From NCBI GenBank assembly GCA_017431395.1, contig JAFRLD010000023.1, positions 1 through 18,671 of the forward strand: a DNA stretch of 18,671 bases, read 5' to 3'. The DNA is from Bacillota bacterium (lineage in GTDB: Bacteria > Bacillota > Clostridia > Peptostreptococcales > Anaerovoracaceae). Each line of letters begins with the position of its first letter. Position 1 is the stretch's first letter. The translations under genes were made by a program, and so were the position numbers. Shown here piece by piece: positions 53 to 16,437 of the stretch. The notes under the pieces were generated by a model. It made no database searches, was not told where the DNA came from, and saw only the letters and a program-made list of their open reading frames with translations.

Positions 53-604
53 TCAGACCGGCGCTTTCCCAGGGAAGCTGACCGGCTCATAGTCGGTGAG
101 GGGAGCGAGAAAACCATGCTGCTGCAGCGCTTCTTGTATGAGATCCAGGATCTCCTCGCTGGGAGCAGCTACGGTATGGTAATGATATCCCGAGGTCGTG
201 TTCTTTAGCAGGCTGGAGCGTCCCTCAGAGACCCCCTGCAGAAATTTCTGCACATCCAGTCTGGAACCGATGTTAAGATCCGCCCGGATCACCCCGTAGA
301 CGCGGTGATAGACGAAGACGTCCCGGACGTAGCCGCCCAGATCCACGAAGAGGTTCAGCTCTTCGGCGGTCTGCTCATCAGAGTGGACGGACTTGAAGAC
401 GCGGGTCTTCTCTCTGGGCTCGATCAGAAGGTATCCGCTGGAGGTGGCCTGGATATTCTTGCCCTGGGCGCGGAGCAGCGCCACATCCTGCACGATGACC
501 TGCCGGCTGACGCCATATCTTCCGGCAAGCGCACTGGCAGAGAGTGGGGCCTCTTCCTGCTTCAGATCCTGTATGATGTTTTCCCTTCGTTCATTTCCTT
601 TCAA
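53..604 (-). CDS. niaR: NiaR-type niacin-responsive transcriptional repressor (HTH + 3H domain)
   Basis: This 183-residue cytosolic DNA-binding protein represses NAD biosynthesis and niacin uptake genes when nicotinic acid is present. Residues 1-60 form a winged helix-turn-helix, with the recognition region around GVSRQVIVQDVALLR. Residues ~70-170 form the 3H domain, named for its conserved histidines. Seen here are His74, Glu82, His141 and His143; their spacing matches the metal-binding His/Glu/His/His set known from Thermotoga NiaR (TM1602). The start is TTG at 604-602, overlapping the nadC stop as TTGA. No in-frame ATG lies nearby, and an AAGGAG sits 8 nt upstream. It is the last gene of nadB-nadC-niaR, so it would be auto-controlled through the operator upstream of nadB. 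Family assignment is firm; the effector is inferred from the family. Confidence 0.93.
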   Translation of the reverse strand: MKGNERRENIIQDLKQEEAPLSASALAGRYGVSRQVIVQDVALLRAQGKNIQATSSGYLLIEPREKTRVFKSVHSDEQTAEELNLFVDLGGYVRDVFVYHRVYGVIRADLNIGSRLDVQKFLQGVSEGRSSLLKNTTSGYHYHTVAAPSEEILDLIQEALQQHGFLAPLTDYEPVSFPGKAPV

Positions 605-1467
605 AAGGCAGTCTCCTTCGGGTGCAGGTTCTTAAGTGATACGTCGAGGATCGGCGCGGAGTGGGTCAGCGCGCCGCTTGAAATATAGTCTACGTCCAGA
701 TCGGCGATCTGGGGAATGCGCTCTGCGGTCACATTTCCGGAGATCTCGATCTCAGCCCTTCCATCTATGATGCGGATGGCTTCCTGCATCGTCTCCCGGT
801 CCATGTTGTCCAGCATGATGATATCCGCCCCGGCTTCCACGGCCTCGCGGACCATGTCCGTAGTCTCCGTTTCGACTTCGATCTTGCGGACGAAGGGCGC
901 GTATTCCCGGGCAGCCTCGATCGCGGCTTTCACGCCGCCGGCAGCGCCGATGTGGTTATCCTTCAGCATGACGCCGTCGGAGAGATTATATCTGTGATTG
1001 TATCCGCATCCGATGCGGACTGCGTACTTCTCGAAGATCCGGTTGTTCGGTGTGGTCTTGCGGGTATCCAGGAGTTTGATCCCGGAACCTTCCAGCAGAT
1101 CCGCCGCCGCCCTGGTGACAGTAGCTACGCCGCTCATGCGCTGCAGATAATTCAGAGCCGTCCGTTCTCCGGTCAGGATCACCCGCATATCGCCGGTGAC
1201 GGTCGCCAGATGCTGTCCGTAGGAAACACGGTCGCCTTCGTTCACGTCAAAGGTCACGACCGTATCCGGATCCAGCAGCTGGAATACCCGGGCGAAGACC
1301 GGAAGGCCGCAGATGACTCCGTCCTGTTTGCAGAGAAGATCTGCCTGCCCTGTCTTTTTCTCAGGAAGCACACAATTTGTCGAAACGTCTTCACTGGTGA
1401 CGTCTTCCCGCAGAGCGCTGAGGATCAGCGGATCCGCGTTAAGGAGCATTGTGATAGGGTCGAGCAT
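601..1467 (-). CDS. nadC: Quinolinate phosphoribosyltransferase (decarboxylating)
   Basis: NadC converts quinolinate and PRPP to nicotinate mononucleotide, CO2 and pyrophosphate, the third step of de novo NAD synthesis in the cytosol. The 288 residues match the usual family length. Visible family motifs are ERTALNYLQRMSG (101-113, PRPP/quinolinate site), DTRKTTP (134-140), NHRYNLSDGVMLKDNH (157-172), and the C-terminal barrel strands EISGNV (241-246) and YISSGALTHSAP (261-272). The start chosen is ATG at 1467, two bases after the nadB TAA, with GGGAGG about 10 nt upstream. The frame is also open further upstream inside nadB, but that extension (to 1521) lies before the conserved N-terminus and has no better ribosome site. 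The gene ends by overlapping niaR. Assignment is very secure. Confidence 0.97.
   Translation of the reverse strand: MLDPITMLLNADPLILSALREDVTSEDVSTNCVLPEKKTGQADLLCKQDGVICGLPVFARVFQLLDPDTVVTFDVNEGDRVSYGQHLATVTGDMRVILTGERTALNYLQRMSGVATVTRAAADLLEGSGIKLLDTRKTTPNNRIFEKYAVRIGCGYNHRYNLSDGVMLKDNHIGAAGGVKAAIEAAREYAPFVRKIEVETETTDMVREAVEAGADIIMLDNMDRETMQEAIRIIDGRAEIEISGNVTAERIPQIADLDVDYISSGALTHSAPILDVSLKNLHPKETAF
613..618 (-). promoter_or_regulatory. Ribosome binding site that decides the TTG start of niaR
   Basis: On the minus strand AAGGAG lies inside the last codons of nadC, 8 nt before the TTG codon at 604-602. This is the main reason for accepting a TTG start. The TTGA stop/start overlap suggests that niaR translation is coupled to nadC. 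Confidence 0.7.
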
Positions 1468-1469
1468 GA

Positions 1470-2801
1470 TTATTCCATCCTCCCTTCTGAAGAAACCTTC
1501 GCTTCCTCTTCCATGATCCATTCCGCCTGATCGATCGCCTTCATGACCAGTTCGTTGCTGAGCCTTCCGTATTCTTCGGCATCCGCGTACTTTTCGAAGC
1601 GGACCTTTTTGAACAGCTCAGGGTTTCGCTGGATGGAATTGTAGCGCAGGATGACATCCGTGGTGGCCCTTCCTGCGAACACGAGGCTCTCCAGGAGGGA
1701 ATTGCTCGCCAGACGGTTCCTGCCGTGCACGCCGTTGCATGCGGTCTCGCCGATGGCATACAGCTGCTTCATGGAGGTGGCGCTGTCGGAGTTGACCTTG
1801 ATGCCGCCCATGAAATAGTGCTGGGCCGGAACGACCGGGATGCATTCCGTCTCCGGATCATACCCGTGCTCCCTGCAGTAGGCGACGATGTTCGGGAAGT
1901 GACTGAGCAGTTCCTCCTTCGGAATGGGGCGCAGGTCCTCCCAGACATGATCCGTCCCGTCCTTTTCCATCTGTGCCAGAATGGCTTTCGTAACGACGTC
2001 ACGGGGCTGGAGTTCGTCCACGAACCGCTCCATATTCTTATCTAACAACAGGGCCCCTTCCCCGCGGACGGATTCTGAAATGAGGAACGACCGCTCCTCT
2101 TCATTCTCCGTATAGAACGTGGTGGGGTGGATCTGGATATAATTGATGTTTTCCAGCTGGATGTTGTGGCGGATGGCAATGGCCAGAGCGTCGCCGGTCA
2201 GATGACGGAAGTTCGTCGAGTGGCGATACAGACCGCCAATGCCGCCGCAGGCCAGGAAGGTGACGCCGGCTTCAATGGTCTGAAGGCTGCCATCTTTCAT
2301 ACGGAGCACCGCGCCATAGCAGGTGTTCCTTTCTTCGATCAGGTCGATCATGGTCGTGTACTCGAGAAGCTGGATATTGGGCCGCTCTTTGGCACGCTCC
2401 AGCAGTTTGCTGGTGATCTCCTTGCCGGTGATGTCTTCATGGAACAGGATGCGCTTCTCGGAATGGGCGCCTTCTCTGGTGAAGGCAAGGCTTCCGTCGG
2501 CTTCCCGCTCGAAGTCAACGCCGTAGCTGATCAGGTCGGCGATCACTCTCTGGGATTCCCGGATCATGATCTCCACCGATTCACGGTTGTTTTCATAGTG
2601 GCCGGCCTTCATCGTGTCCTGAAAGTAGTTCTCGAAATCCTTCTCGTCCCGGAGCATACAGATGCCTCCCTGGGCGAGAAAAGAATCGCTGCTTTCGAGG
2701 TCCGCCTTGGTGATAATGGTGACCTGTTTGTCGGCGGGAAGGTGCAGGGCCGCATACAGGCCGGAGCATCCGCTGCCAACGATCAGAATATCTGTTTTCA
2801 T
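1470..2801 (-). CDS. nadB: L-aspartate oxidase, short form
   Basis: NadB is an FAD enzyme that oxidises L-aspartate to iminoaspartate for NadA. In anaerobes fumarate is the likely electron acceptor rather than O2. The N-terminus carries the dinucleotide motif GSGCSG, followed by SDSFLAQGGI, the active-site strand IHPTTFY, SVRGEGALLLD, RDVV and the C-terminal FAD signature YAIGETACNGVHGRNRLASN. The start at ATG 2801 places the FAD motif within the first dozen residues and has AAAGGA upstream; a longer reading to 2882 would run through the operator and -35 region and is rejected. At 443 residues it is about 90 shorter than E. coli or B. subtilis NadB and seems to lack most of the C-terminal helical domain. 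All catalytic motifs are present, so I read it as a compact clostridial form, not a broken gene. It is first in nadB-nadC-niaR. Confidence 0.95.
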   Translation of the reverse strand: MKTDILIVGSGCSGLYAALHLPADKQVTIITKADLESSDSFLAQGGICMLRDEKDFENYFQDTMKAGHYENNRESVEIMIRESQRVIADLISYGVDFEREADGSLAFTREGAHSEKRILFHEDITGKEITSKLLERAKERPNIQLLEYTTMIDLIEERNTCYGAVLRMKDGSLQTIEAGVTFLACGGIGGLYRHSTNFRHLTGDALAIAIRHNIQLENINYIQIHPTTFYTENEEERSFLISESVRGEGALLLDKNMERFVDELQPRDVVTKAILAQMEKDGTDHVWEDLRPIPKEELLSHFPNIVAYCREHGYDPETECIPVVPAQHYFMGGIKVNSDSATSMKQLYAIGETACNGVHGRNRLASNSLLESLVFAGRATTDVILRYNSIQRNPELFKKVRFEKYADAEEYGRLSNELVMKAIDQAEWIMEEEAKVSSEGRME

Positions 2802-2853
2802 GTAAAGATTCCTTTCTGAAGGCGCCGAAAGCGCCATAAATGGGTTCGACTGA

Positions 2854-2882
2854 AATGTAACATATATAGAGGTACGTGTCAA
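2854..2882 (-). promoter_or_regulatory. Promoter of nadB-nadC-niaR
   Basis: On the minus strand, TTGACA (2882-2877) is followed after exactly 17 nt by TACATT (2859-2854), about 53 bases before the nadB start. The -35 box lies inside the 2874-2889 palindrome, so a repressor bound there would block RNA polymerase. No experimental start is known. Confidence 0.7.
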
Positions 2883-2889
2883 GACACCT
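2874..2889. promoter_or_regulatory. Candidate NiaR operator between nadB and nadA
   Basis: The 16-bp sequence ACGTGTCAAGACACCT is an imperfect palindrome: the arms A-GTGTC / GACAC-T pair, with one mismatched arm position and a central AA. It overlaps the nadB -35 box and ends 15 bp upstream of the nadA -35 box. From memory, NiaR sites in Bacillota are palindromes built around TGTC/GACA, which fits. The niaR gene in the same regulon supports the assignment, but I have not aligned it to a motif collection. Confidence 0.65.
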
Positions 2890-2903
2890 GTGTAGATATC
2901 ATC

Positions 2904-2931
2904 TTGACATATGGCCAGCCTTTGCTAAAAT
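2904..2931 (+). promoter_or_regulatory. Promoter of nadA
   Basis: TTGACA (2904-2909), 16-nt spacer, then TAAAAT (2926-2931) preceded by TGC, giving an extended -10 (TGCTAAAAT). The nadA start lies about 46 bases downstream. The NiaR-like palindrome sits just upstream of the -35 box. Confidence 0.7.
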
Positions 2932-2977
2932 AAAAAACGAGGATTTTTACTTCAACATGCGAAATAAGGGAGAACAT

Positions 2978-3895
2978 ATGAATAAGAAGGAACTTCAGGA
3001 AGAAATATTACGTTTGAAAAAAGAGAAGGATATCTGCATTCTGGCGCACGCTTATCAGGATCATGAGCTGTGGGAAGTGGCCGACTACATGGGCGACTCC
3101 TTCGGCCTGAGCCTGCAGGCCCAGAAGGCGCAGCAGCAGAACGTGATCATGTGCGGCGTCCGGTTCATGGCGGAGACGGTCAAGACACTTGCGCCTGATA
3201 AGAGGGTGTGGATCGCTAATGAGCGAGCGGGCTGCCCTATGGCGGATCAGATGGATCGCGAGGATGTGCTCCGGCTGAAGGAGCGGTATCCGGACTATAC
3301 GGTCTGCGCTTACATCAATACCACAGCAGACCTGAAGCGGGCGGTGGATGTGGTCGTCACGTCCTCTTCGGCGATGAAGATCATAGGACAGCTGCCGGAT
3401 GAGAAGATCCTGTTCATTCCGGACCGGAATCTGGGCGGCTGGATCGCGAAGCAGATGCCGGAGAAGACCTTCGCTTTCTTCGATGGCGGATGTCCATCCC
3501 ATATGAAGATCACGCCGGAAGACGTGGAACGGGCCCGCAGAGAGTACCCGGAGGCGCAGATCCTTGTCCATCCGGAATGTGTAGCTGCCGTGGCGGAAGG
3601 CGCCGATTACGTCGGGAGCACCACCGGCATCATGAAGTACGCGAAGGAGAGCGAAGGCTCCCAGTTCATCATCGGTACCGAAAACAGCATCGTGGAGCAC
3701 CTGCGCATCGAATGCCCGGACAAGCAGTTCGCGGCCCTGTCCCCTCTGTGCGTCTGCCCAAACATGCGCATGACCACACTGGAGGATCTCTACGGCTGCA
3801 TCATGGGAACGGCAGGGGAGGAGATCCTGCTCTCACCGCAGGAGATCGAGGAGTCCAGAAGACCCATCGACCGGATGATCGAGCTGGGCGGCTGA
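2978..3895 (+). CDS. nadA: Quinolinate synthase A ([4Fe-4S] enzyme)
   Basis: NadA condenses iminoaspartate with dihydroxyacetone phosphate to quinolinate, using an oxygen-sensitive [4Fe-4S] cluster. The 305-residue length is that of the compact NadA type. The three expected cluster ligands are seen: Cys110 (TVCAYINTTA), Cys201 (VHPECVAAVA) and Cys260 (CPNMRMTT). Other family signatures are AHAYQDHE near the N-terminus, VTSSSA, FIPDRNLG and GSTTGIM. The start ATG at 2978 has AAGGGAGA about 6 nt upstream. The frame is open back to 2876, but that extension runs through the promoter and is rejected. Transcribed divergently from nadB, with which it forms the enzyme pair; a hairpin terminator follows about 40 bases after the stop. 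Confidence 0.97.
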   Translation: MNKKELQEEILRLKKEKDICILAHAYQDHELWEVADYMGDSFGLSLQAQKAQQQNVIMCGVRFMAETVKTLAPDKRVWIANERAGCPMADQMDREDVLRLKERYPDYTVCAYINTTADLKRAVDVVVTSSSAMKIIGQLPDEKILFIPDRNLGGWIAKQMPEKTFAFFDGGCPSHMKITPEDVERARREYPEAQILVHPECVAAVAEGADYVGSTTGIMKYAKESEGSQFIIGTENSIVEHLRIECPDKQFAALSPLCVCPNMRMTTLEDLYGCIMGTAGEEILLSPQEIEESRRPIDRMIELGG

Positions 3896-3980: not shown

Positions 3981-6900
3981 TTACCGGACCCGTACGGTCT
4001 TCGCCTTGCTCCATGGGGAGTATAAGGTCTTCCCGCCGGTTTTCATGTAAGTGCGGATGCGCACATAGTATTTTTTCTTCTTCAGCTTGGTGATCTTCGC
4101 CGAGGTCTTCTTGTATCCCTTGACCTTTATCTTTTTGCTGCCAGACTTGAAGTTCCCCTTCGTGCTGTATTGAATCTCATATCCGGTGATGCGGGCCTTC
4201 GGCATCTTAGAAGATTGTTTCCTCCATTTCACCGTGAAGGATCCCTTGCCCTTTTTCAGTTTGGCCAGAGAAGTGCCCATCGGGACGATCCTTAATGTGG
4301 CCTTGGCCGTTCCGATAAGGTCGCCCTGAAGCTCCGCGCGGACCGTATATGCCCCGACGTTTTTGCGGCCGGCAGGCAATGTGATCTCATACTGGGAAGG
4401 ATCGAGGACCACACCGTTGTTCGTTACCGTGACGGAAGGCGTCCGGACCTTGCCGTTCCAGACGTAGCTCGCCCTGTTCAGTTTGACCGTCGCTTTCACT
4501 ACAGGTATGATGTCGGTCTTATCAAGGCCGCAGGTATCGCAGACGTAGACTTTTAACCCTGTTTCATCTTTCGAGGCGCGCCGCACTAGCGTGCCTTCAT
4601 CCCATGCGTGATCCTCGGTGGCCGGCAGGATATCCGTCTTCGTGTCGCCGCAGGTCCTGCAGGTGAACGTTTTGAGACCGGTATGGGAGCACGTGGCTTC
4701 CTTCAGCAGCGTGCCTTCATCCCAGTTATGGCCGGCCGCTTCGATAAGCACGGACTCCGTTTCACCGCACAGGCCGCAGGTATGCTCCCGGCTGCCGCTT
4801 TCGGTGCAGGTCTCCTGCTTAGTCACATTCCATTCGCCCCAGGCGTGTGCCAGCGGATCGATCTGGGTCTCGTATTTGATCGCAACACCACACCTCTCGC
4901 AGACTGATTTGATCTCGCCCGGCGCAGAGCAGGTGGCTTCGACCGTCACTTCCGGCTCGCCCCATACATGGTCTGCGGTATTCGCGCAGGCCCCTTCATG
5001 GACCTCGATCCTGGCCGTTCTGGTCGCCCCGCATCTGTCGCAGGTGAACGTGATGATGCCGTCCTCGTCTGTGGTCGCTTCCTTCGTGATCACGCCGGTA
5101 TCCCAGTCATGGTCATAACTTTCGAAGGTCCTGGTCTCTTTGTGGGAAGCATCGTTTCGGCAGACCCTTTCTTCGGTCCCGCCTACCGTACAGGTCGCGT
5201 CTTTAGTAACGGTCCAGTCGCCCCAGTTATGGGCGCCCGCATCCGGCGGAAGCGTGACGTCCGCCTTATCTACCTCGTGCCGGCCTGCAGCGTCGGTGAA
5301 GCATTTGCCGCACTTCGTGCACTTGTAGTAGGCGACATTGCCCTCCTCGGTGCAGCTGGGAGAGGCCGCCTCCACATGTTTCATCTTATGCTCGTGGACC
5401 GCCCCGCGGAGCATGGCAATGGCTTCTTCCGCTGCCATGAGGTTCTCCAGCGCATCCTCCCGGACCTTGGCCTTTTGTGCCTTGGTCATGGAGTCGTACT
5501 CCCAGCGGAGGTCTTCGATGCCGAGTTCGAGTTCATCGGTCAGCGTATCCGCACTGATGTTTTCGGGCACCAGTGCAGCCATACGATCAGACAGGTCGTC
5601 CGCCTTGGCTTGATCTGCTACATCCCTATGGAGCTGTTTGATATGGGCCTCAGCGTCCTTCAGTTTCTGCAGGTTTGCGACCAGCCTTTGCGCGTCCTTA
5701 GGCAGTGCGTCGTATGCGGCCCGCGCGGCGGCTACGGCAGCCTCGTATTCTGCAAAGGCTGGACTGTCCAGCCCAATATCTTCCGGATAAGCCGAAAGCC
5801 CGTCGATCGCGCTGAGCACTTCCAGAAGCGCTGGATCCGCCCCGTACTGCAGCTCGCTGTCATGATAGAGGACGTCTTCGATCAGCCCCTCGATCTTCGC
5901 ACATTCTTCCTTGCCGACGAGCCGCCTCTGATAATCCGTCAAGGCTGCGAAATTGTCCCGCAGCTCCATTACCCGGTCATGGTATTCGCTTGTGATGTCA
6001 TCCAGGGAGGCAGGCTTCGAAGCCAGAAGCTCGTTCGCGAAGGCGACGATATTCTCGGCGATCCGCTGGTCTTTCGTTTTGCCGTTTGGAACCGCGGTCA
6101 CCTGATCCATATAGCACCACTGGTGATACCACCATGCGCTTGAATAGTATCTGTAGTAATAAGTGCTGCAGGGACGGAGCTCATAGGTGTACTTCTCCCC
6201 GTTGACGACATCCGTATCCGTCCATTCATAAGAGGTGCGGTCCGCAGGGAAGGTGGCCACGACGCCATAGTTGTTTCCCCAGGTCCTGAGGACCTGATAG
6301 TAGGTCGCCTCAGACTCATCGCTGTTCAGTTTCGTGCGTTTGTTCCACTTCAGTGTGATCTGCCCATCGCCTTCGGTCACATCCGGCTTGATCCGCCCCG
6401 GAGGATATTTCTCATGTTTGATCTGGGACTCCGTCGGCCAGGTGAATTCGATATAGTCGCTCGGAGCGCCCCAGTCCCTGCCCACGGTCCTGGACGGGAT
6501 CGCGCGGACGCGCAGGCGGAGCTTCTGGCCGCCGAACTGGGTGATCATACCGGAGACCTCGTCCGAATAGGAGTATTTGTTCCAGCTCGTGATCACGGCG
6601 CCGGTGGACATTCCGAAGGATTCGTCCAGATCCATACCGTTCCAGTAATCGGTCTCAGGGTCCTTATCGATCGTCTGGTATTCCAGCCGGTAATACGCGG
6701 GAAGGCCGCCGGAGGCAGGCGGGGTCCAGGAAAGGATCACGTCGCCCTTGTCATTTTTCACGGCCAGGTCTTTCGGGGCCTCCAGATCTGCGTCCAGCGT
6801 GGAAAGGCTGGCAGCCTGCGGATCGCTCTTGTGGACCTTGCCGCCAGAGTCGACCGCGGAGACATAGTATTCATAGGTCACGCCGACGGACAGGCCCTCA

Positions 6901-9755
6901 TCCGTGAAGGTATACCTGTCGTCATCAGAGTCGTATGCGCAGCCGGAGGAAGGGTCCGGGGCGCCCGGAGCCACCGTCAGGATCTTTTCCCATGGACTCG
7001 CATCGGCTCTGCGCCAGAGCTGATATTCGCTCGCGCTATCCGCTTCTCCGCCAAAAAGCCCAGCCCATGTGAGCTTCACGGAATCCGTGCCTGCCGTTTC
7101 CGCCTTGAGGGCATGGACGCTTGTGATCACTGTGCTGACCGGAGCGGAGGAAGCCTGTCCCTTCGTGTTGACTGCGGTGACGATCACTTCATAGGTATCG
7201 CCGGCATCGAAGTTATGAAGAATAAGGTAGGTTTGCTGTTCCCCTCCGACATTGACCGTAATAGTGTCTGTAAGCGTATCATTTAAGTTGGTAAGTGCCA
7301 CATCGTAGTGGTCCACAGCTCCGCCGGAGACCGGGGCGCTCCAGGAGACACAGAGCCGGCCCGACAGGGACAGGGGATTATACTGGTTCTGTGTCCACTC
7401 CGTTCTGAGAGAGACGTTTTCGGGAGCGCCGGGCTCGGAATCATCCGTATCGAATGGCAGCAGGCCAGTCTCTGAAGAGGTGTATTCCAGGACTTCCGAT
7501 GGCTCGCTGTAGCCGACCTCGTTATAGGCGACGATCCAGATCCGGTGCGGGTTCAGCTCCTGGTGCTCCGCGTCGCCATCATTGTGTTCTGCTGAGAAAT
7601 CATATATCGTAAAGGTGTTCACATCTCCCTTGGTGCACCAGTATCTGCCGGCTGCGGCTTCCCCGGCTTCACGCTTCGGATTGCCCCAGGACAGGTTATG
7701 GTCCCATTCGTGCGTGTTGTAGACCCCTCCATCGGTCCGGTAGATCACATAGCCTTCCGGGGTCCCGCCGTCTTTCGAAGGTTCCCACATGAGCTTCAGC
7801 CAGTTGCTGTCCTCATAGCCGAGCACCCGCCCGGTGAGCTTCGGTTTGCCGGGGGCCTTGTCGAAGGAATCCGGGTCCGGATCGGAGGTATCCCGCACGA
7901 ATCTGCGTACGTTGCTCGTGACGGTACAAGCCGGGAATTCACGGCTGGTCCATGTGACCGTATAGTCATAGGTTCCATCGCGGCCCGGATCATCCGTATA
8001 TTCAAGCTCTTTGTTCGGGGAAGTCCAGGACTTCAGCAGTCTGCCATCCCGGTAGAGCCGGTAGGTGCCATCCTTATAGGCGCCCCAACTTAACAAGGCG
8101 GCTTCGCCATCCGCCGTGCGGAAGCTCAGCGTCAGAGGAGCGCCTCCGGGAGCGCTTTCCCAGTCGCCCTCATCTGCGGCGACCGTGACAAATACAGGTT
8201 CGGATTCCCGTCCGTCCGATGAGACGCTGACGATCTTGTAGGAATAGACTTTGCCCTTCTTGACCCCGGTATCCATTTCTTTGCCTTCGGGCGTCGTGGT
8301 AAGATCCACTTTCTTATAGTCCGAATCCGGTGCGTCCGGAGCTTTTCGCCACACCTTCAGATGGGCTACGCCATACCCTCCCATCTCGAAGTAGAAGCCG
8401 GTGTATTTGGCGAGGATCTTGTCGGTTTCTTCATCATGGACTTCCTCTGTCGTATAGAAGATATGATAGTCCGTGATCGCTACATCCTTCTCATCCTCCT
8501 GCCAGGCAGTGTCTTTGTTGCTCGGCAGGCTCTCGGTCCCGTCCGGTGCGACGGCGGTGACCCAAAAGGTATAAGGAACATCGCTCTCCGCAGGGTAGAC
8601 GACGGTGTTCCAGGAGTAATTGATCGTATCATTATAGCCTTCGCCCGTGCTGTAGGCCTTTTGCTGGACCTGCTTGACGAGCCGGCCGTTCTGGTAGACG
8701 TTAAAATGGTCCACCTCGCCCTCACCGCTTGGGTTCTGCGGCTCATATGAAGTATCGAGGGGATCGTCCCGGCCGCCTTTTTCGTCCCAGAGCCAGCTGA
8801 AGGAGATGCCAGCTTCCGTCCCATTAAAGGAGAGCCAGTAGGGAGCCGCCGGCTTCTTTCGCAGGCTGGCTTTAGGGGTCGCCGAAACGGACCTGCTCGG
8901 ATTGCCGGAGTACTGGGTGAGATAGGTTCCGGAGATCACGATATAGGAGTAGGTCTTGCCGTTCTCCGCATAGTAGTCCGCATAGACGGTGTCTCTGAAC
9001 CCGCCTTCCTCGTCCCAGCTGTTAACGCTTTTGGTATTGACTTTGTCCAGAAACACATATTCGTCGAGGTCCGGCCTGGCCGGTGCCTCATCCGTTCCGT
9101 TCCTCCGGTAGACAGAGAAAGAAGTGCAGCCTGCAGGAGCGGTCCAGGAAACTTCCGCATAGCCATTTCCAGCCTTTGCGGTAACGCCGGTGGCGGCCGG
9201 TTCAAATTGCGGGTTGCTCCCCTTAAGGGTGATGGAGACAGGGATCTTCAGAAGATACCCGTTGCCGGACGGGGCCTGCACGCATTTGTAGACTCCGCCA
9301 TTCGCGTTCACTTTGTTGTCAAGAGGGACATAGACGATCGCCGTGTACTTGCCGGCAGAAAGATAGGCCGCATCGAAGCTCACGGTGAAGGTCACATATT
9401 TGTAATATGACTGATTGACGATGTCGCTGCAGGAAAAGGTGCCGCCCGCCGGCTTGCTATCCGCGGTATAGATCCCGTCGTAATAGAAGGTGTGGTTCTT
9501 TTCGAACTGGATCGCCATCCGGTAGGAAACGATGTACCTGTCATCGTTCTCTGTCAGCTTGGAGAGGTCCACCGTCCCCAAGCTGATGGAATCCTTCTGC
9601 GTGACCGTGTTGGAGCCGCTCGAGATCTTTCCGACGGTGGCTTTTTCCGTTGCAGCACTTACAGGGTCGGTCGAAAACCCTGCAGCCAGGACCAGTCCCG
9701 CCAGCAGCAGGCAGACGAAAACGAAGGCGCTGAGGCCATGACGTTTTTTCAGCAT
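3981..9755 (-). CDS. Very large exported modular surface protein (FN3 domains, helical repeats, CxxCG repeats, Ig-like domain)
   Basis: A 1924-residue exported protein of unknown ligand. Residues 1-35 are a signal peptide: MLKKRH, a hydrophobic stretch, and likely cleavage near VSAA. Residues ~37-185 look like a beta-rich N-terminal domain. Residues ~186-1222 hold about nine FN3-like domains of roughly 100-130 residues, recognisable by repeated strands such as VSWTAP...SVYRR, LSWTPP...YRLEY, LKWNKR...YQVLR and AY/TAV...YS-type ends. Residues ~1224-1460 are alpha-helical repeats, ~1460-1748 are seven CxxCG repeats, ~1750-1820 an Ig-like domain (NRASYVWNGK...NVGAYTVRAEL), and ~1828-1924 a very Lys-rich final FN3 domain. 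I see no LPXTG, SLH or transmembrane anchor. The start has GGGGAGG 9 nt upstream. It lies 56 bases after the fumarase beta gene, with no visible terminator or clear promoter in between. Role likely adhesion or surface scaffold, by inference. Confidence 0.85.
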   Translation of the reverse strand: MLKKRHGLSAFVFVCLLLAGLVLAAGFSTDPVSAATEKATVGKISSGSNTVTQKDSISLGTVDLSKLTENDDRYIVSYRMAIQFEKNHTFYYDGIYTADSKPAGGTFSCSDIVNQSYYKYVTFTVSFDAAYLSAGKYTAIVYVPLDNKVNANGGVYKCVQAPSGNGYLLKIPVSITLKGSNPQFEPAATGVTAKAGNGYAEVSWTAPAGCTSFSVYRRNGTDEAPARPDLDEYVFLDKVNTKSVNSWDEEGGFRDTVYADYYAENGKTYSYIVISGTYLTQYSGNPSRSVSATPKASLRKKPAAPYWLSFNGTEAGISFSWLWDEKGGRDDPLDTSYEPQNPSGEGEVDHFNVYQNGRLVKQVQQKAYSTGEGYNDTINYSWNTVVYPAESDVPYTFWVTAVAPDGTESLPSNKDTAWQEDEKDVAITDYHIFYTTEEVHDEETDKILAKYTGFYFEMGGYGVAHLKVWRKAPDAPDSDYKKVDLTTTPEGKEMDTGVKKGKVYSYKIVSVSSDGRESEPVFVTVAADEGDWESAPGGAPLTLSFRTADGEAALLSWGAYKDGTYRLYRDGRLLKSWTSPNKELEYTDDPGRDGTYDYTVTWTSREFPACTVTSNVRRFVRDTSDPDPDSFDKAPGKPKLTGRVLGYEDSNWLKLMWEPSKDGGTPEGYVIYRTDGGVYNTHEWDHNLSWGNPKREAGEAAAGRYWCTKGDVNTFTIYDFSAEHNDGDAEHQELNPHRIWIVAYNEVGYSEPSEVLEYTSSETGLLPFDTDDSEPGAPENVSLRTEWTQNQYNPLSLSGRLCVSWSAPVSGGAVDHYDVALTNLNDTLTDTITVNVGGEQQTYLILHNFDAGDTYEVIVTAVNTKGQASSAPVSTVITSVHALKAETAGTDSVKLTWAGLFGGEADSASEYQLWRRADASPWEKILTVAPGAPDPSSGCAYDSDDDRYTFTDEGLSVGVTYEYYVSAVDSGGKVHKSDPQAASLSTLDADLEAPKDLAVKNDKGDVILSWTPPASGGLPAYYRLEYQTIDKDPETDYWNGMDLDESFGMSTGAVITSWNKYSYSDEVSGMITQFGGQKLRLRVRAIPSRTVGRDWGAPSDYIEFTWPTESQIKHEKYPPGRIKPDVTEGDGQITLKWNKRTKLNSDESEATYYQVLRTWGNNYGVVATFPADRTSYEWTDTDVVNGEKYTYELRPCSTYYYRYYSSAWWYHQWCYMDQVTAVPNGKTKDQRIAENIVAFANELLASKPASLDDITSEYHDRVMELRDNFAALTDYQRRLVGKEECAKIEGLIEDVLYHDSELQYGADPALLEVLSAIDGLSAYPEDIGLDSPAFAEYEAAVAAARAAYDALPKDAQRLVANLQKLKDAEAHIKQLHRDVADQAKADDLSDRMAALVPENISADTLTDELELGIEDLRWEYDSMTKAQKAKVREDALENLMAAEEAIAMLRGAVHEHKMKHVEAASPSCTEEGNVAYYKCTKCGKCFTDAAGRHEVDKADVTLPPDAGAHNWGDWTVTKDATCTVGGTEERVCRNDASHKETRTFESYDHDWDTGVITKEATTDEDGIITFTCDRCGATRTARIEVHEGACANTADHVWGEPEVTVEATCSAPGEIKSVCERCGVAIKYETQIDPLAHAWGEWNVTKQETCTESGSREHTCGLCGETESVLIEAAGHNWDEGTLLKEATCSHTGLKTFTCRTCGDTKTDILPATEDHAWDEGTLVRRASKDETGLKVYVCDTCGLDKTDIIPVVKATVKLNRASYVWNGKVRTPSVTVTNNGVVLDPSQYEITLPAGRKNVGAYTVRAELQGDLIGTAKATLRIVPMGTSLAKLKKGKGSFTVKWRKQSSKMPKARITGYEIQYSTKGNFKSGSKKIKVKGYKKTSAKITKLKKKKYYVRIRTYMKTGGKTLYSPWSKAKTVRVR
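4500..5400 (-). repeat. Seven tandem Cys-rich (CxxCG ... HxW) repeats within the large exported protein
   Basis: Seven units of about 40 residues follow the pattern HxW-(D/G)-E/W-G-T/V-x-K-E/D-AT-C-x5-G-x4-T-C-x2-CG. The CxxCG is clear in six units (KCTKCG, TCDRCG, VCERCG, TCGLCG, TCRTCG, VCDTCG). One unit reads CRNDASH instead, keeping a Cys and ending in His. At DNA level the 17-mer agcgtgccttcatccca occurs at 4588-4604 and again at 4708-4724, exactly 120 bases apart, so the array grew by tandem duplication. The pairs of Cys and His suggest small zinc-ribbon-like or disulfide-held modules; which of these is not visible. Confidence 0.85.
5375..6085 (-). repeat. Three alpha-helical repeats within the large exported protein
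   Basis: Residues ~1224-1460 contain three degenerate helical units of about 70-80 residues. Each ends in a helix-turn-helix pattern: FAALTDYQRRLVG...AKIEGLI, YDALPKDAQRLVA...KDAEAHI and YDSMTKAQKAKV...MAAEEAI. The common core is (Y/F)-x-x-(L/M)-T/P-x-x-Q-(R/K)-x-x-V followed by an AE/IE-containing helix. Similar helical spacers are common in long wall proteins of Bacillota. They probably act as a rod between the FN3 array and the Cys-rich repeats. I do not assign a family name. Confidence 0.65.
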
Positions 9756-11315: not shown

Positions 11316-11343
11316 TTGACACATTTCGTGAGAATGTTAAAAT
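11316..11343 (+). promoter_or_regulatory. Promoter of the ior operon
   Basis: TTGACA (11316-11321), 16-nt spacer, TAAAAT (11338-11343) with TGT just before it, making an extended -10. Expected transcription start is near 11350. This excludes an iorA start at 11351 and fits the GTG at 11390. Confidence 0.75.
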
Positions 11344-11389
11344 CTAAACGTTGAATATTAAACTGATGAAGGAAGTGAAGGTAAATAAC

Positions 11390-13285
11390 GTGGAATGGAT
11401 GACAACAAAGAATGAACCGGGCAAGACTTACCTGATGCAGGGTAATGAAGCAATTGTCCGGGGTGCGCTGGAAGGCGGGGTGCATTTCGCATCATCCTAT
11501 CCGGGCTCACCATCGTCTCAGGTCCTTGGGATGCTGGGGCATATTGCGGAGGATCAGGGCTTCCGTGCGGAGTGGTCAACGAACGAGACCACCGCGCTGC
11601 AGTCCTGCATGGGAGCGTCCTTCGCGAACGGCAGAGCGATCTGCATCGTTAAGCAGAACGGCCTGCTGTTCCATGGGGATACGATCCACTGCGGAGCGCT
11701 GGGCGGCATCAAGGGCGGTCTGGTCATCGTCAGCTCGGACGATCCGGATTCCCATTCGAGCACTAACGAATTCGACTCAAGACATATGGCGGTTTCCGCC
11801 AATATTCCGATGCTGGAGCCGGCAAGCGTACAGGAGACCAAGGATATGATCCCGTACGCATTCGAGCTGTCAGAGGAGCTCGGGCAGATGGTCCTGGTGA
11901 GAGTGACCACGAGGATCTGCCACGGCAGAGGCAGCGTCACCCTCGGAGAGATCCCTGAGAGAAGGCCGTTCACACCGATCGGTCTCTGGGACCGGATGGT
12001 CGGTATCAACTGGCTCCATGGATTCCTGCTGGAGAAGCTCGAAAGAGCGAGGGAAGCCTTCGAAGTGAGCCCGTTCAACCACTATACGGGCAAGGAGGGG
12101 GCAGAGAAGCTGATCATCACCGGCGGAACCGGCATGAAGTATGTTCAGGAAGCGCTCGAAGAGTTCGGCAAGGAGGACGAAGTAGGCGTTCTCAGCCTCG
12201 GCTGTCTGTGGCCGCTTCCGGAGAAATTCATCCTCAAATATCTGTCGAAAGCATCGAAGGCATTGATCGTCGAAGAAGTCGATCCGTTCCTCGAGGAGCA
12301 TATCTCAGCGATCGCGGGCAAGGCCAAACTCAGCGTGGACATTCAGGGCAGGGCAGACCTGATCCCATCCATCGGAGAACTCAATCCGGAGGTCGTGTTC
12401 AAGGCTGTGGGAGAATTTCTGGGTGAAGAACTCCCGTCGAAGCCGGTTTGCGGCGGCGAGGGCTGCCCGGCGATCGAAGGTGTCAATATCCCTGCCAGAG
12501 AGCTGACATTCTGCGCAGGCTGTCCTCACAGAGCTTCCTTCTTTATCCTCAAGCAGGCGCTCAGAATGGAAGGGCATAAGGGCGTCGTGATGGGCGACAT
12601 CGGCTGCTATACCATGGCAGGCCAGAGAGCCGGCCAGTATGGCTATCACTTCATGAGCTGCATGGGCTCAGGAATCAGTGCGGCAGAAGGCCTCGGCCAG
12701 CTGACGAGCTACGGGTTCGATCAGCCGGTGGTCAGCCTTTGCGGAGACTCGACCTTCTTCCACTCGGTCGTCCCCGGACTCATTAACGCCAAAATGAATG
12801 AAGCGAATATCCTTCACATCGTTCTGGACAACTCGGCGACGGCTATGACCGGATTCCAGCCGCACCCGGGGACTGGGCAGACCGCGATGGGATTTGAGAC
12901 CGAGAAGATCTCGATCCAGGCGCTCTGCGAATCCCTCGGATGCAGGGTCTGGAAGGCCGATCCGTTCGATGTCGAAAATACGAAGAACCTGATCTGTGAG
13001 CTGATCGGGATGAAGGGTCTGAAGGTACTGATCCTGGAACAGCCGTGCGCGACCCTGGCGGCCAAGACCAGAAAGAAAAAGAAAGTCTGGGTCGATACCG
13101 ATATCTGCCGAGGCGCGAACTGCGGGTGCGACGGATACTGCAGCAGAGTCTGGGGATGCCCGGGCAACATCTGGGATTTCGAGAAGGACTGTGCGGCGAT
13201 CGATGAGGTCGTCTGCGTAGGATGCGGCGCTTGTGCCAGCATTTGCCCGTCAGGGGCGATCAAAGTGGAAGGAGGCGATGAGTGA
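11390..13285 (+). CDS. iorA: Indolepyruvate:ferredoxin oxidoreductase, alpha subunit (TPP and Fe-S)
   Basis: IorA with IorB oxidatively decarboxylates aryl pyruvates (from Trp, Phe, Tyr transamination) to aryl-acetyl-CoA and reduces ferredoxin. It has about 631 residues. The N-terminal pyrimidine-binding part shows QGNEAIVRGALEGG and SSYPGSPSSQV. The TPP-binding core is GDIGCYTMAG, then CGDSTFFHSVVPGL and HIVLDNSATAMTG. The C-terminal ferredoxin-like tail (~567-631) holds ten Cys: an odd CRGANCGCDGYCSRVWGCP, then the standard CVGCGACASICP. Start chosen: GTG at 11390 with GAAGG 8 nt upstream; ATG at 11399 is possible, and earlier TTG/ATG codons lack a ribosome site or precede the expected transcript start. 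The stop overlaps the iorB ATG (TGATG). Family is secure; the exact 2-oxoacid is inferred. Confidence 0.93.
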   Translation: MEWMTTKNEPGKTYLMQGNEAIVRGALEGGVHFASSYPGSPSSQVLGMLGHIAEDQGFRAEWSTNETTALQSCMGASFANGRAICIVKQNGLLFHGDTIHCGALGGIKGGLVIVSSDDPDSHSSTNEFDSRHMAVSANIPMLEPASVQETKDMIPYAFELSEELGQMVLVRVTTRICHGRGSVTLGEIPERRPFTPIGLWDRMVGINWLHGFLLEKLERAREAFEVSPFNHYTGKEGAEKLIITGGTGMKYVQEALEEFGKEDEVGVLSLGCLWPLPEKFILKYLSKASKALIVEEVDPFLEEHISAIAGKAKLSVDIQGRADLIPSIGELNPEVVFKAVGEFLGEELPSKPVCGGEGCPAIEGVNIPARELTFCAGCPHRASFFILKQALRMEGHKGVVMGDIGCYTMAGQRAGQYGYHFMSCMGSGISAAEGLGQLTSYGFDQPVVSLCGDSTFFHSVVPGLINAKMNEANILHIVLDNSATAMTGFQPHPGTGQTAMGFETEKISIQALCESLGCRVWKADPFDVENTKNLICELIGMKGLKVLILEQPCATLAAKTRKKKKVWVDTDICRGANCGCDGYCSRVWGCPGNIWDFEKDCAAIDEVVCVGCGACASICPSGAIKVEGGDE

Positions 13286-13893
13286 TGAGGACCAATGTAG
13301 TGATCTGCGGGATCGGCGGACAGGGAAACATTCTGGCCTCCGGCCTCATGGGCTCCGCCCTGGTAGAGATGGGATACAAGGTAGCTGTAGGAGAGACCTA
13401 TGGCGCATCCCAGAGAGGCGGCTCGGTCATGAGCCACCTGAGAGTATCTGATGATGTGGAGCGTGGCGTGCTCATTCCGCATGGCAAGGCGGATGTCGTG
13501 GTCGCGTTCGAGCCGGTGGAGGCGCTCAGGATCCTTCGTGTTTACGGCAATCCGGACACTAAGGTGATCTATGATACACGTCCGGCATATCCGCTGGGAG
13601 TCCTGATCGGAGAGGATGAATATCCGTCCATCGAGGCGATCGATGCGGAGATCAACGCCCGCAGCAGCATAAGCTATCCGCTGCCCGCGACCGAGATGGC
13701 TATGGAAGCCGGAAACGCCAAGGTAGCCAATATCCTCATGATGGGCGCCCTGGCAGCACTGGATGAGATGCCGCTTGAGCCGGATGACTTCTTCAAGGTT
13801 CTGGAGCAGAACTTCCACGGAGGTGCTTTAGAGCTGAACAAGAAAGTGTTCATGACAGGATACAGATGGATCAAGGAAGGAGGGGCGAAATAA
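13285..13893 (+). CDS. iorB: Indolepyruvate:ferredoxin oxidoreductase, beta subunit
   Basis: This 202-residue gamma-type domain protein is the partner of IorA in the cytosolic 2-oxoacid:ferredoxin oxidoreductase. Seen are the nucleotide/CoA-side loop ICGIGGQGNILASGLMG near the N-terminus, the family signature ETYGASQRGGSVMSHLR (~38-54), DVVVAFEP, and GNAKVANILMMGAL near residues 147-160. All are as in known IorB. The ATG at 13285 shares its A with the iorA TGA and has GGAGG 9 nt upstream; the GTG one codon earlier is less likely. Its TAA overlaps the next gene's ATG by one base. Equimolar, coupled expression with IorA is expected. Confidence 0.95.
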   Translation: MRTNVVICGIGGQGNILASGLMGSALVEMGYKVAVGETYGASQRGGSVMSHLRVSDDVERGVLIPHGKADVVVAFEPVEALRILRVYGNPDTKVIYDTRPAYPLGVLIGEDEYPSIEAIDAEINARSSISYPLPATEMAMEAGNAKVANILMMGALAALDEMPLEPDDFFKVLEQNFHGGALELNKKVFMTGYRWIKEGGAK

Positions 13894-14159
13894 TGACGGA
13901 TATGATCAAACAGAAGTGCAGATTTTCGCACCCCCTGCGCAGGACCTTCTATGAGGCGGAGATCCCCGTATCCATGACCTTTAAGGAGATCGAAGAAAAA
14001 CTGATCGAGGAAGGTTTCATTGACTGGAAGGTAGGCGGATACCAGTTTATCTATGAGGATCATATGTGCAAGCTGGCAGCGCCGCTCTCGGATTACATTC
14101 CTGAAGGAGTGGAATGTATGGAGATCAGAATCCACGGACTCCTGATCGTTTTGACATAG
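13893..14159 (+). CDS. Small protein with ubiquitin-like (beta-grasp) pattern, unknown function
   Basis: An 88-residue cytosolic protein with no family I can name securely. The layout resembles ubiquitin-like folds, especially YukD/EsaB: a strand with EAEIPVSMTF (~21-30), a helix EIEEKLIEEGF (~32-42), strands YQFIYEDHMCKLAAPLSDY (~50-68), then IPEGVECMEIRIHG (~69-82). The 'L-x-D-Y-x-I-x-x-G-x-x-(I/L)-x-I' ending is the usual ubiquitin-like pattern. There is no C-terminal Gly-Gly; it ends LLIVLT, so a thiol- or isopeptide-forming carrier is unlikely unless processed. The ATG at 13893 overlaps the iorB TAA, with AAGGAGG upstream; only 13 bases separate it from the next gene. That position points to a partner or regulator of the oxidoreductase or of the FrhB-like protein. 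Gene call is firm; the fold is inference. Confidence 0.8.
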   Translation: MTDMIKQKCRFSHPLRRTFYEAEIPVSMTFKEIEEKLIEEGFIDWKVGGYQFIYEDHMCKLAAPLSDYIPEGVECMEIRIHGLLIVLT

Positions 14160-14172
14160 AAGGAGGCGCGTG

Positions 14173-15219
14173 ATGTACAGTATATTTGAAATTGAACGAA
14201 AAGTGGTCGACGCCGGTATCTGCACGAACTGCGGCGCATGCCAGGGAATGTGCCCTTACTGGAAGTCGCATGAAGGACGCACCTTCGTAGATTATGACTG
14301 TGACCGCAAGGAAGGTCGCTGCAAATATTTCTGCCCGAGAATGCCGGCGGATCTTGATGCTCTGCGGGAGAAACTCTTCGGCAGTGACGGATGTGAGATC
14401 ATTCCGGAGATCGGTCCTTTCCGGGCACTCTATCTGAGCCGTGCGGCGGATCCCGAGATCCGGAAGAACGCCCAGCACGGCGGCACGATGACAGCGCTCG
14501 TGGAGTTCGCTCTGGCAGAAGGTTTCATTGACGCCGCGGTCCTTTCGAAGGCCGGGAAGGCGGATGGAACTCTTGATCCGGCCGGTTTCCTTGCGACGAG
14601 TCCGGCGGATGTCAGAAGCTGCGGCGGATCGAGCTTCCAGATCCCTCCGACGCTGGCGGTGCTGAACGAAGCTCTCGCAGCGGATGAGTATAAGAAGATC
14701 GGTGTCGTCGGCACCCCCTGCAAGGCGCTCGCTGTTGCCAAGATGAAAGCGAAGCCTTATGCGGACAACGACAACCATGCGGACAATATCGGTATGGTGT
14801 TCGGCCTGTTCTGCGGATGGGGGCTCGACTGGAAAGGCCTGGCCGCTTTAGGTGATGCCGGACATGTGGACATCCTTCCGAGCAAATACCATCGCATGGA
14901 CATGGATGACCGGCAGGTGGATCTCGATGAGGTCCTGCCGCTCGTCAGGAATGCATGCAAATACTGCGACGACATGACTGCGGAATTCGCAGACCTGTCC
15001 GTCGGCGGAGCCAGAAGCTCCGAAGGCTGGGATGTGGACCAGGGCTGGAACCAGCTTATCGTCCGTACCGAGAAGGGACAGAAACTCGTCGATCTTGCCC
15101 GCGAGAAGGGCGTGCTCGAGTTCCGGGAGTTTGGCGATGAGGAAGCGGCAGCGGCCGCCATGGACAAGCTCATGAGAGCATCTGCGTCGAAGAGAGCTAA
15201 GGCGCTCAGCATTGAATAA
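14173..15219 (+). CDS. FrhB/FdhB-type iron-sulfur flavoprotein (coenzyme F420 hydrogenase beta-subunit family)
   Basis: A 348-residue cytosolic electron-transfer protein. Residues 17-27 hold a ferredoxin-type CTNCGACQGMC, followed by CP; further Cys lie at 43, 50 and 54 (CKYFCP). HGGTMTALVEFALAEGFIDAAV (from ~102) is the family's flavin-binding stretch. GTPCKA (180-185) and NACKYCDDMTAEFADLSVGG (260-279) are the family's C-terminal Cys motifs. In methanogens the family passes electrons between Fe-S clusters, FAD and F420. In Bacillota, which mostly lack F420, relatives serve as ferredoxin-linked reductases of varied substrates. The ATG at 14173 has AAGGAGG 6 nt upstream, 13 bases after the preceding gene. 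Placement after iorAB suggests it takes electrons from IOR-reduced ferredoxin, by inference. Confidence 0.85.
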   Translation: MYSIFEIERKVVDAGICTNCGACQGMCPYWKSHEGRTFVDYDCDRKEGRCKYFCPRMPADLDALREKLFGSDGCEIIPEIGPFRALYLSRAADPEIRKNAQHGGTMTALVEFALAEGFIDAAVLSKAGKADGTLDPAGFLATSPADVRSCGGSSFQIPPTLAVLNEALAADEYKKIGVVGTPCKALAVAKMKAKPYADNDNHADNIGMVFGLFCGWGLDWKGLAALGDAGHVDILPSKYHRMDMDDRQVDLDEVLPLVRNACKYCDDMTAEFADLSVGGARSSEGWDVDQGWNQLIVRTEKGQKLVDLAREKGVLEFREFGDEEAAAAAMDKLMRASASKRAKALSIE

Positions 15220-15251
15220 AACTGAATAACAAAACTAAATAAAGAGGAAAC

Positions 15252-16391
15252 ATGAACGGAAACGATATCAGCAGAGATCAATGGATGCTGAAGGGACCCC
15301 TCGCAAGCAAAGGTTATGACTGGTGGTGGCATTCGTTTACGGCAGAGAAGGAGGGGACCGGAGAGCGGAAACCATTTTATGTGGAGTTTTTCACATGCAA
15401 TCCGGCGCATGCGCAGGATGAACCGATTATCGTATGGAACGATAAGGAGAAACAGGCTCAGGGGATACTCCCGTCCTATCTCATGGTGAATGCAGGTTAC
15501 TGGGGCGAGGAGCACGGACAGCTGCACAGGTTCTTTTCGCTTAAAGACGCGGAGATCCCGGACAGCGTGCCGTATTCCGTCAAAGCAGGCGACTGCTTCT
15601 GCTCCGAACGTTATACAGAGGGAAGCATCTCCGTTTCGGAGGAAGAGGCGGAAGCACATCCGGAATGGATGTGTGACGCCGGAGAGTTCACATGGAAGCT
15701 TAAGATCTACAAGGACATCGCTTTTAATGTGGGATACGGGGCGAGCCAGCCTTTGCGAAAACTCAATGCGTTCGAGATGTTCTGGCATGCCGAGGGCATG
15801 AAATCCCTGTTCGAGGGGGAAGTCATCCTGAACGGTGAGAGGTACCTCGTCCGGCCGGAGAGCTGCAACGGTTATGCGGATAAAAACTGGGGCGGCGATT
15901 TCACGAGCCCGTGGGTATGGCTGTCATCCAACAACCTGACCAGCGCCCTTACCGGGAAGAAACTGACGAACAGCGTGTTCAATATCGGTGGCGGCCGGCC
16001 GAAGGTGGGCCCCGTTGCCCTGGAGCGCAAGCTGCTCGGCGGGATCTATTACGAGGGAACATTCTATGAGTTCAATTTCTCTAAATTCTGGACGCTCTCC
16101 AGGACGGAGTTCGATTGCCGGGAGACCGGGGACGAGATCATCTGGCATGTGATCCAGACGACGCGGACAGCGAAACTGGACACGCAGATCCACTGCCTCA
16201 AGAAGGAGATGCTCAATATCAATTACGAGTCCCCCGACGGACACAAACGCCACGGCCGTCTCTGGAACGGCGGCACGGGCCAAGGCGTCCTGAAACTTTA
16301 CCGGCGCGGTGCTTCCGGCAAGGAAACGCTGATCGATGAGATCATTGCCGAGGAGATCGGATGCGAGTACGGAGAGTATACGACGGAATAG
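15252..16391 (+). CDS. Tocopherol cyclase / CrtC / AttH-like lipocalin-fold protein
   Basis: A 379-residue cytosolic protein with no signal peptide and many Trp and Tyr. The N-terminal KGYDWWWHSFTAE (~20-32) and the central NGYADKNWGGDFTSPWVWLSS (~206-226, split here as NGYADKNWGG and DFTSPWVWLSS) match the conserved core of the tocopherol cyclase/CrtC/AttH group. These are two-lobed lipocalin-like barrels that cyclise, hydrate or otherwise act on hydrophobic substrates. Length is typical of the family. The ATG has AGAGGA about 4 nt upstream. It follows the FrhB-like gene by 32 bases with no terminator and is the last gene before a strong hairpin, so it belongs to the ior transcript. Substrate is unknown; tocopherol itself is not expected in an anaerobe. 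Confidence 0.75.
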   Translation: MNGNDISRDQWMLKGPLASKGYDWWWHSFTAEKEGTGERKPFYVEFFTCNPAHAQDEPIIVWNDKEKQAQGILPSYLMVNAGYWGEEHGQLHRFFSLKDAEIPDSVPYSVKAGDCFCSERYTEGSISVSEEEAEAHPEWMCDAGEFTWKLKIYKDIAFNVGYGASQPLRKLNAFEMFWHAEGMKSLFEGEVILNGERYLVRPESCNGYADKNWGGDFTSPWVWLSSNNLTSALTGKKLTNSVFNIGGGRPKVGPVALERKLLGGIYYEGTFYEFNFSKFWTLSRTEFDCRETGDEIIWHVIQTTRTAKLDTQIHCLKKEMLNINYESPDGHKRHGRLWNGGTGQGVLKLYRRGASGKETLIDEIIAEEIGCEYGEYTTE

Positions 16392-16410
16392 AAACTATAA
16401 TAACAAATAA

Positions 16411-16437
16411 GGGCGCCCCCTGAGAGGGGCGCCTTTT
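16411..16437 (+). terminator. Strong rho-independent terminator of the ior operon
   Basis: GGCGCCCC (16412-16419) pairs perfectly with GGGGCGCC (16426-16433) around a 6-nt loop and runs into TTTT, then GAGTTT. It lies 20 bases after the last operon gene. On the minus strand it is followed by CTTATTTGTTATT, so it may also stop the convergent nucleotidase transcript. Confidence 0.9.

Follow-up and report, generated by a model that had tools for sequence, protein, structure and literature searches.

The window, i.e., the whole stretch of 18,671 nucleotides analysed here, contains five open reading frames on the plus strand between positions 11390 and 16391, and on re-reading of the sequence they were located as in the preliminary description, with exactly the overlaps and gaps that it gave. 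The iorA-type gene (11390–13285) encodes the large subunit of a TPP-dependent 2-oxoacid:acceptor oxidoreductase with a C-terminal Fe-S domain, assigned from Pfam and NCBIfam models and a clade signature. It shares one base (13285) with the iorB-type gene (13285–13893), whose product is a POR gamma-domain subunit (PF01558, 116.7 bits, and synteny); the latter, in turn, shares one base (13893) with ubl (13893–14159), which codes for an 88-aa protein, Ubl, with a predicted ubiquitin fold. After a gap of 13 bases follows the frhB-like gene (14173–15219, ATG at 14173), which combines an N-terminal ferredoxin domain with an FAD/[4Fe-4S] domain of the F420-reductase type. The fifth gene (15252–16391), a member of the tocopherol-cyclase family, is separated from frhB by 32 bases.

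The start of iorA is the conserved GTG at 11390, not the TTG at 11351. It is preceded by the leader AAGGAAGTGAA, which, small differences aside, is present in the 14 related loci displayed; both the leader and the N-terminal start of IorA (EWMTTKNEPGK) are common to relatives from the same genus. The region had been described as having one promoter and one strong terminator. A promoter-like site, TTGACA-16-TAAAAT, is indeed present at 11316–11343 on the plus strand and agrees with the consensus at 11 of 12 positions, but such sites occur in the region at chance level (4 found, 4.8 expected), so that the promoter is good by match, not by count, and is weakly supported. The putative terminator is a GC-rich hairpin (16412–16433) between convergent genes and is possibly bidirectional. 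Its score applies to the minus strand alone, the plus-strand sequence 3' of the hairpin being TTTTGAGTTT, and terminator-like sites are likewise no more frequent than expected by chance (6 found, 6.4 expected).

Family models bear out the domain readings proposed for the IorA, IorB, FrhB-like and tocopherol-cyclase proteins. Domains of the POR/IOR superfamily, namely PF02775 (TPP), PF01855 (POR_N) and PF01558 (POR gamma), score above their cut-offs. In the equivalog comparison with TIGR03336/TIGR03334, IorA reaches 539.3 bits against a cut-off of 650.9, and IorB 163.1 bits against 205.8. As both proteins remain below the cut-offs of all displayed IOR models, "indolepyruvate" has to be understood as a family label rather than as a demonstrated substrate; the IOR-type build that had been proposed stands. 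The two subunits resemble the indolepyruvate:ferredoxin oxidoreductase IorAB in domain build but differ from it in their scores, in a changed first Fe-S motif, in the sequence YPGSPS, and in having ubl and frhB as partners.

An ordinary IorA with 35–40% identity is also encoded in the genus, at 61 places, one of them in the window's own genome. The operon-type IorA (at least 84% identity) was found in 17 of 49 genomes of the genus, 15 of which have ubl; in the remaining two, the gene extends up to the end of the contig. At the 16 ordinary iorAB loci examined of the 61, with flanks of mostly about 1.5 kb, neither ubl nor frhB was found. In a tree of 52 proteins, all 36 operon-type IorA rows form one side of a branch with support 100/100. 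These 36 proteins carry CxxxxCGCxxxCSRVWGCP and YPGSPS, neither of which is seen in the 16 paralogs, all having YPGTPS instead. The operon-type IorA is a separate clade tied to the four-gene unit iorA-iorB-ubl-frhB, and its changed cluster region is a candidate docking place for the partner proteins.

Within the set of 49 genomes of the host genus, ubl is present in 16, and 15 loci besides the window were fetched. The order iorA-iorB-ubl-frhB is retained in 13 of the 15, the other two being cut by contig ends. A wider scan, with one genome per species and an FrhB alignment, yielded 39 relatives; since it required two exact, conserved FrhB peptides, it could detect only loci that keep frhB and missed more distant ones. 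In 37 of the 39 loci the four genes, each complete or partial, follow one another as in the window; the other two are again cut by contig ends. The two sets share genomes, several loci of the scan repeating same-genus ones, and therefore the counts of 13 and 37 are not additive. A separate FrhB search at E 1e-30 among 148 genomes of the order matched the window alone.

The identity of IorA falls to 55–61% in contigs of Oscillibacter, Dysosmobacter, other Clostridia and one labelled Lachnospiraceae; two loci (L076 and L080) hold only partial iorA, and the 71% of the L076 fragment is excluded from this range. Adjacent genes overlap or are mostly at most 20 bases apart, with a maximum of 29, as measured where both ends were readable and with start codons chosen by a script. 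Among ten listed loci the flanking genes vary between groups, hence the four-gene unit stands by itself. Pairwise identities of the proteins correlate strongly (r 0.95–0.98, 36 rows), as shared descent alone would predict. Four genes and not five form the conserved unit: the neighbourhood comparison across Clostridia suggested in the preliminary description finds iorA-iorB-ubl-frhB in distant genomes, but not the cyclase-like gene beside them. Gene order conserved in this way points to a functional link, rather than demonstrating contact between the proteins. Strain records with Oscillibacter in their titles, presumably from cultured organisms, bear the four-gene set as well.

The ubiquitin-like fold suggested earlier for the small protein is supported by structure prediction. 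The model has the beta-beta-alpha-beta-beta-beta order and matches ubiquitin structurally, so that Ubl is predicted to adopt the beta-grasp fold. The Ubl profile matches single ubiquitin weakly (best E 0.23), and the value of 2.7e-12 against poly-ubiquitin chains is a sum over repeats; therefore, the fold is the basis of the assignment. No family match was obtained in Pfam or PHROGs. Across 38 rows, residues Y50, Y68 and P70 are invariant, whereas C59 is conserved in 37. The C-terminal Gly-Gly is absent from the window's protein and from all 38 loci in which the C-terminus of Ubl is present, which speaks against a conjugated or sulfur-carrying protein of the ThiS, MoaD or ubiquitin kind.

A closer parallel is provided by TmoB of toluene monooxygenase, RnfH and YukD, which are single-domain ubiquitin-like proteins encoded, as here, in the operon of a redox complex or an export machine, although the operon partners differ and the protein described here has no Pfam family. 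An adaptor or assembly role has been proposed for proteins of this type (PMC1779556, PMC1949818). The solved structures of TmoB, RnfH and YukD are not among the 50 fold-search matches listed, which has no bearing on the relationship. Relatives of Ubl in other families were sought with the profile in samples of 198, 291, 391 and 299 genomes, a search of low sensitivity with no Oscillibacter-like carrier among its matches. Three weak matches turned out to be other proteins once the reading frames were read, presumably AbiEi-like by eye, and further ones, covering 25–48 positions at E 0.0015–0.01, were taken as chance.

The FrhB-like protein belongs to the FrhB/FdhB family by both its N- and C-terminal domains (PF04422 and PF04432). 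The ligands of the internal cluster, C183, C214, C262 and C265, are conserved in 40 of 40 sequences, and the N-terminal ferredoxin domain contains seven Cys. By both sequence and fold, the best match is 8riu_B, the F420-reducing zeta subunit of a CO dehydrogenase from an ethanotroph. The equivalog model of F420-reducing FrhB (TIGR03289) gives 128 bits against a cut-off of 331.5, and the F420-contact motifs IGKGK and GSVGS are altered, one Lys of the F420 turn being kept. The structural model is of low confidence N-terminally, where block means are 47–70; residues 1–60 are the presumed docking part. FrhB subunits of the zeta type with a ferredoxin domain are described as docking directly on the partner enzyme (PMC11493965). 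The N-terminal ferredoxin domain is that of a docking subunit, and therefore the free ferredoxin by which IorAB had been proposed to feed the flavoprotein may be unnecessary; the proposed redox module of IorAB, the FrhB-like flavoprotein and a small co-occurring partner is retained.

We favour, with a probability of roughly 0.6, the reading that IorA, IorB, Ubl and the FrhB-like protein would form one all-in-one complex, in which Ubl would be the adaptor, electrons would pass to an acceptor other than F420, and the cyclase-like gene would have no part. Judging from their family, the IorAB-type subunits would carry out the TPP- and CoA-dependent decarboxylation of a 2-oxo acid. Electrons would then run from the Fe-S clusters of IorA to the ferredoxin domain of the FrhB-like subunit, to its own [4Fe-4S] cluster and on to FAD, a path suggested by homology with the ethanotroph zeta subunit (8riu_B), and FAD would hand them to a soluble acceptor, probably not coenzyme F420. 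Ubl may be, comparably to TmoB, a structural adaptor by which the FrhB module is fitted to the special IorA, rather than a conjugated or sulfur-carrying ubiquitin.

FrhB modules on other oxidoreductases have been solved structurally (including those in PMC11493965). The CO dehydrogenase (8RIU, zeta) and the formylmethanofuran dehydrogenase (8RJA, FwdI) of Ca. Ethanoperedens likewise join an Fe-S oxidoreductase to a ferredoxin-FrhB subunit, but they have another oxidoreductase core and use F420 as the acceptor, and the accessible text of their description makes no mention of a ubiquitin-fold subunit. In ANME-1, the FrhB paralog FrhB6 is encoded in gene clusters with pyruvate:ferredoxin oxidoreductase, and the pair is proposed to work oxidatively, reducing F420 (PMC9012536). 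These are F420-using archaea, the pyruvate enzyme is not of the IOR type, and the part of the account available to us does not mention a ubiquitin-like protein. Thus, as far as these accounts go, the link between a 2-oxoacid oxidoreductase and an FrhB paralog is already known, and so are ubiquitin-like subunits of redox machines (TmoB, RnfH). No published account of the combination iorA-iorB-ubl-frhB was found in the open-access literature searched, in agreement with the preliminary description, which knew of no described system with this gene set. If the proposal is correct, bacteria that seemingly do not make F420 would have a 2-oxoacid oxidoreductase equipped with an FrhB-type flavin outlet, the ubiquitin fold would gain a new job as one of the subunits of an anaerobic redox enzyme, and the electron bookkeeping for 2-oxo acids in gut and rumen Clostridia would change. 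As Oscillibacter strain records bear the set, the proposal is open to laboratory testing.

Among the alternatives, the one that survives best, though we consider it rather unlikely, is that the FrhB-like protein acts on its own, reducing an organic substrate at the expense of ferredoxin, and IorAB merely supplies reduced ferredoxin within the same pathway. The chlorophyll reductases HCAR and BciB, which would be the precedents, are FrhB-like FAD/Fe-S proteins too, and BciB, in the descriptions accessible, receives its electrons from ferredoxin. A separate reductase is difficult to reconcile with the closest sequence and fold matches (8riu, 8rja), which sit on their electron source, and with the co-occurrence of Ubl and the special IorA with the FrhB-like protein. 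To our knowledge, neither HCAR nor BciB has a 2-oxoacid oxidoreductase or a ubiquitin-like partner.

It is less probable still that the enzyme works in the opposite direction, with electrons entering at FrhB and IorAB carboxylating an acyl-CoA, so that the resulting 2-oxo acid could serve amino acid synthesis. Reactions of the IOR type can in principle proceed either way, carboxylations that form 2-oxo acids are known in rumen and gut settings, and the record titles of many relatives indicate rumen or gut as the source. Against this, a donor at the flavin level would be expected to lack the reducing power for making 2-oxo acids unless additional energy is supplied; a comparable argument has been made for F420H2 and pyruvate oxidoreductase (PMC9012536).

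Use of F420 itself, either imported or produced by a pathway that escaped notice, would make the complex an F420-dependent 2-oxoacid oxidoreductase, which we regard as improbable. Its attractions are the FrhB family membership and a published report of F420 genes in some Firmicutes (PMC8498797). In addition, a CofE-like protein (PF01996) is encoded in 38 of the 49 genomes of the genus, including 18/18 operon bearers compared with 20/31 others (Fisher p 0.004, with kinship ignored). The other biosynthetic genes tell against it: CofH scores above the cut-off in 0/20 operon-bearing genomes and CofD in 0/24, compared with 3/14 controls in each case, although several genomes are incomplete, the window's own being 79% complete. 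Matches to CofH below the cut-off occur in 18 of the 20 genomes, but E. coli and other controls have them too, and they were hence taken as other radical SAM proteins; those to CofD occur in 7 of the 24. The changed contact loops of the FrhB-like protein also disfavour F420. F420 is thus unlikely as the carrier in these hosts, yet possible, given the CofE-like protein and the reports from Firmicutes, and the retained Lys of the F420 turn together with the CofE-like protein of all operon bearers leaves the same room for a relative of F420. The long shot in this direction would be reduction of a soluble hydride carrier distinct from both F420 and ferredoxin, perhaps a hitherto undescribed flavin-like compound glutamylated with the CofE-like ligase, with Ubl gating or docking the transfer. 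Were it true, gut Clostridia would have a new electron-carrier economy.

The fifth gene encodes a protein that matches PF14249 (Tocopherol_cycl) with 36.7 bits, above the gathering cut-off of 26.6. By tblastn, the gene is beside the unit in none of the 15 same-genus loci (14 with sequence behind frhB, one ending before frhB) and in none of the 39 scanned loci (31 with at least 1.5 kb behind frhB), and on these grounds it was rejected as a part of the system. The five-gene module of the preliminary description, with the cyclase-like enzyme making the product, draws on the gap of just 32 bases and the lack of a scored terminator-like site in between, and is largely contradicted, hence scarcely credible, given these loci, the four genomes that have both the unit and the cyclase-like gene on different contigs, and the abundance of the tocopherol-cyclase family in its own right (3827 proteins). 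Seven of 36 other genomes of the genus searched contain the cyclase-like gene, and in the stretches fetched there none of iorA, iorB, ubl and frhB accompanies it; of these seven contigs, three are shorter than 4.5 kb. The gene seems to be a local neighbour of the conserved unit and may, in the genome of the window, be co-transcribed with frhB.

The gene directly upstream of iorA differs among relatives. In several members of the same genus, it encodes a radical SAM protein of approximately 196 aa, as read in two of the fetched loci, L027 and L030; the L030 protein (L030:4619–5209; equivalent place in L027) matches PF04055. The positions of weak CofH matches suggest that six further same-genus relatives carry a putative radical SAM gene at this place. 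No such gene precedes iorA in the window, where fumarase genes are found instead. In genus genome G069, fumAB is located downstream of frhB (L089:1848–3232), i.e., on the opposite side of the iorA-iorB-ubl-frhB unit from that seen in the window, and hence the fumarase pair remains nearby while the order is altered. In locus L085, on a contig labelled Lachnospiraceae, the region just upstream of the unit (L085:1254–5215) contains an apparent molybdopterin-type oxidoreductase and a TorD-like chaperone, as judged from the ORFs by eye.

Downstream of frhB, the window contains a gene of the PF14249 family (15252–16391, plus strand). The family, whose members are approximately 380 aa long, is highly abundant (3827 protein matches), several matches carrying names from Clostridia, Lachnospiraceae, and Butyrivibrio; we know of no function for it. 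The window gene may belong with the 5'-nucleotidase side, since in genus genome G031 (locus L043) a 5'-nucleotidase fragment, resembling the next gene after the PF14249 gene in the window, lies approximately 8 kb from the PF14249 gene.

A CofE-like protein (PF01996; e.g., L142:484–1854, on contig C199 of G000) was found in 38 of the 49 genus genomes, including all operon bearers (18/18). Among the operon-bearing genomes searched for CofH (20) and CofD (24), the other F420 biosynthesis markers, no match to either reached the cut-off.

Elsewhere in the window, a cluster for NAD synthesis (53–3895) comprises NadA and quinolinate phosphoribosyltransferase, whose assignments come from Pfam, as well as a 3H-domain regulator; its FAD protein is taken as NadB, and nadA is divergent from the rest. 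On the minus strand, positions 3981–9755 encode a 1924-aa protein with fibronectin III domains, in whose second half a series of repeats bearing cysteine pairs was noted by eye.
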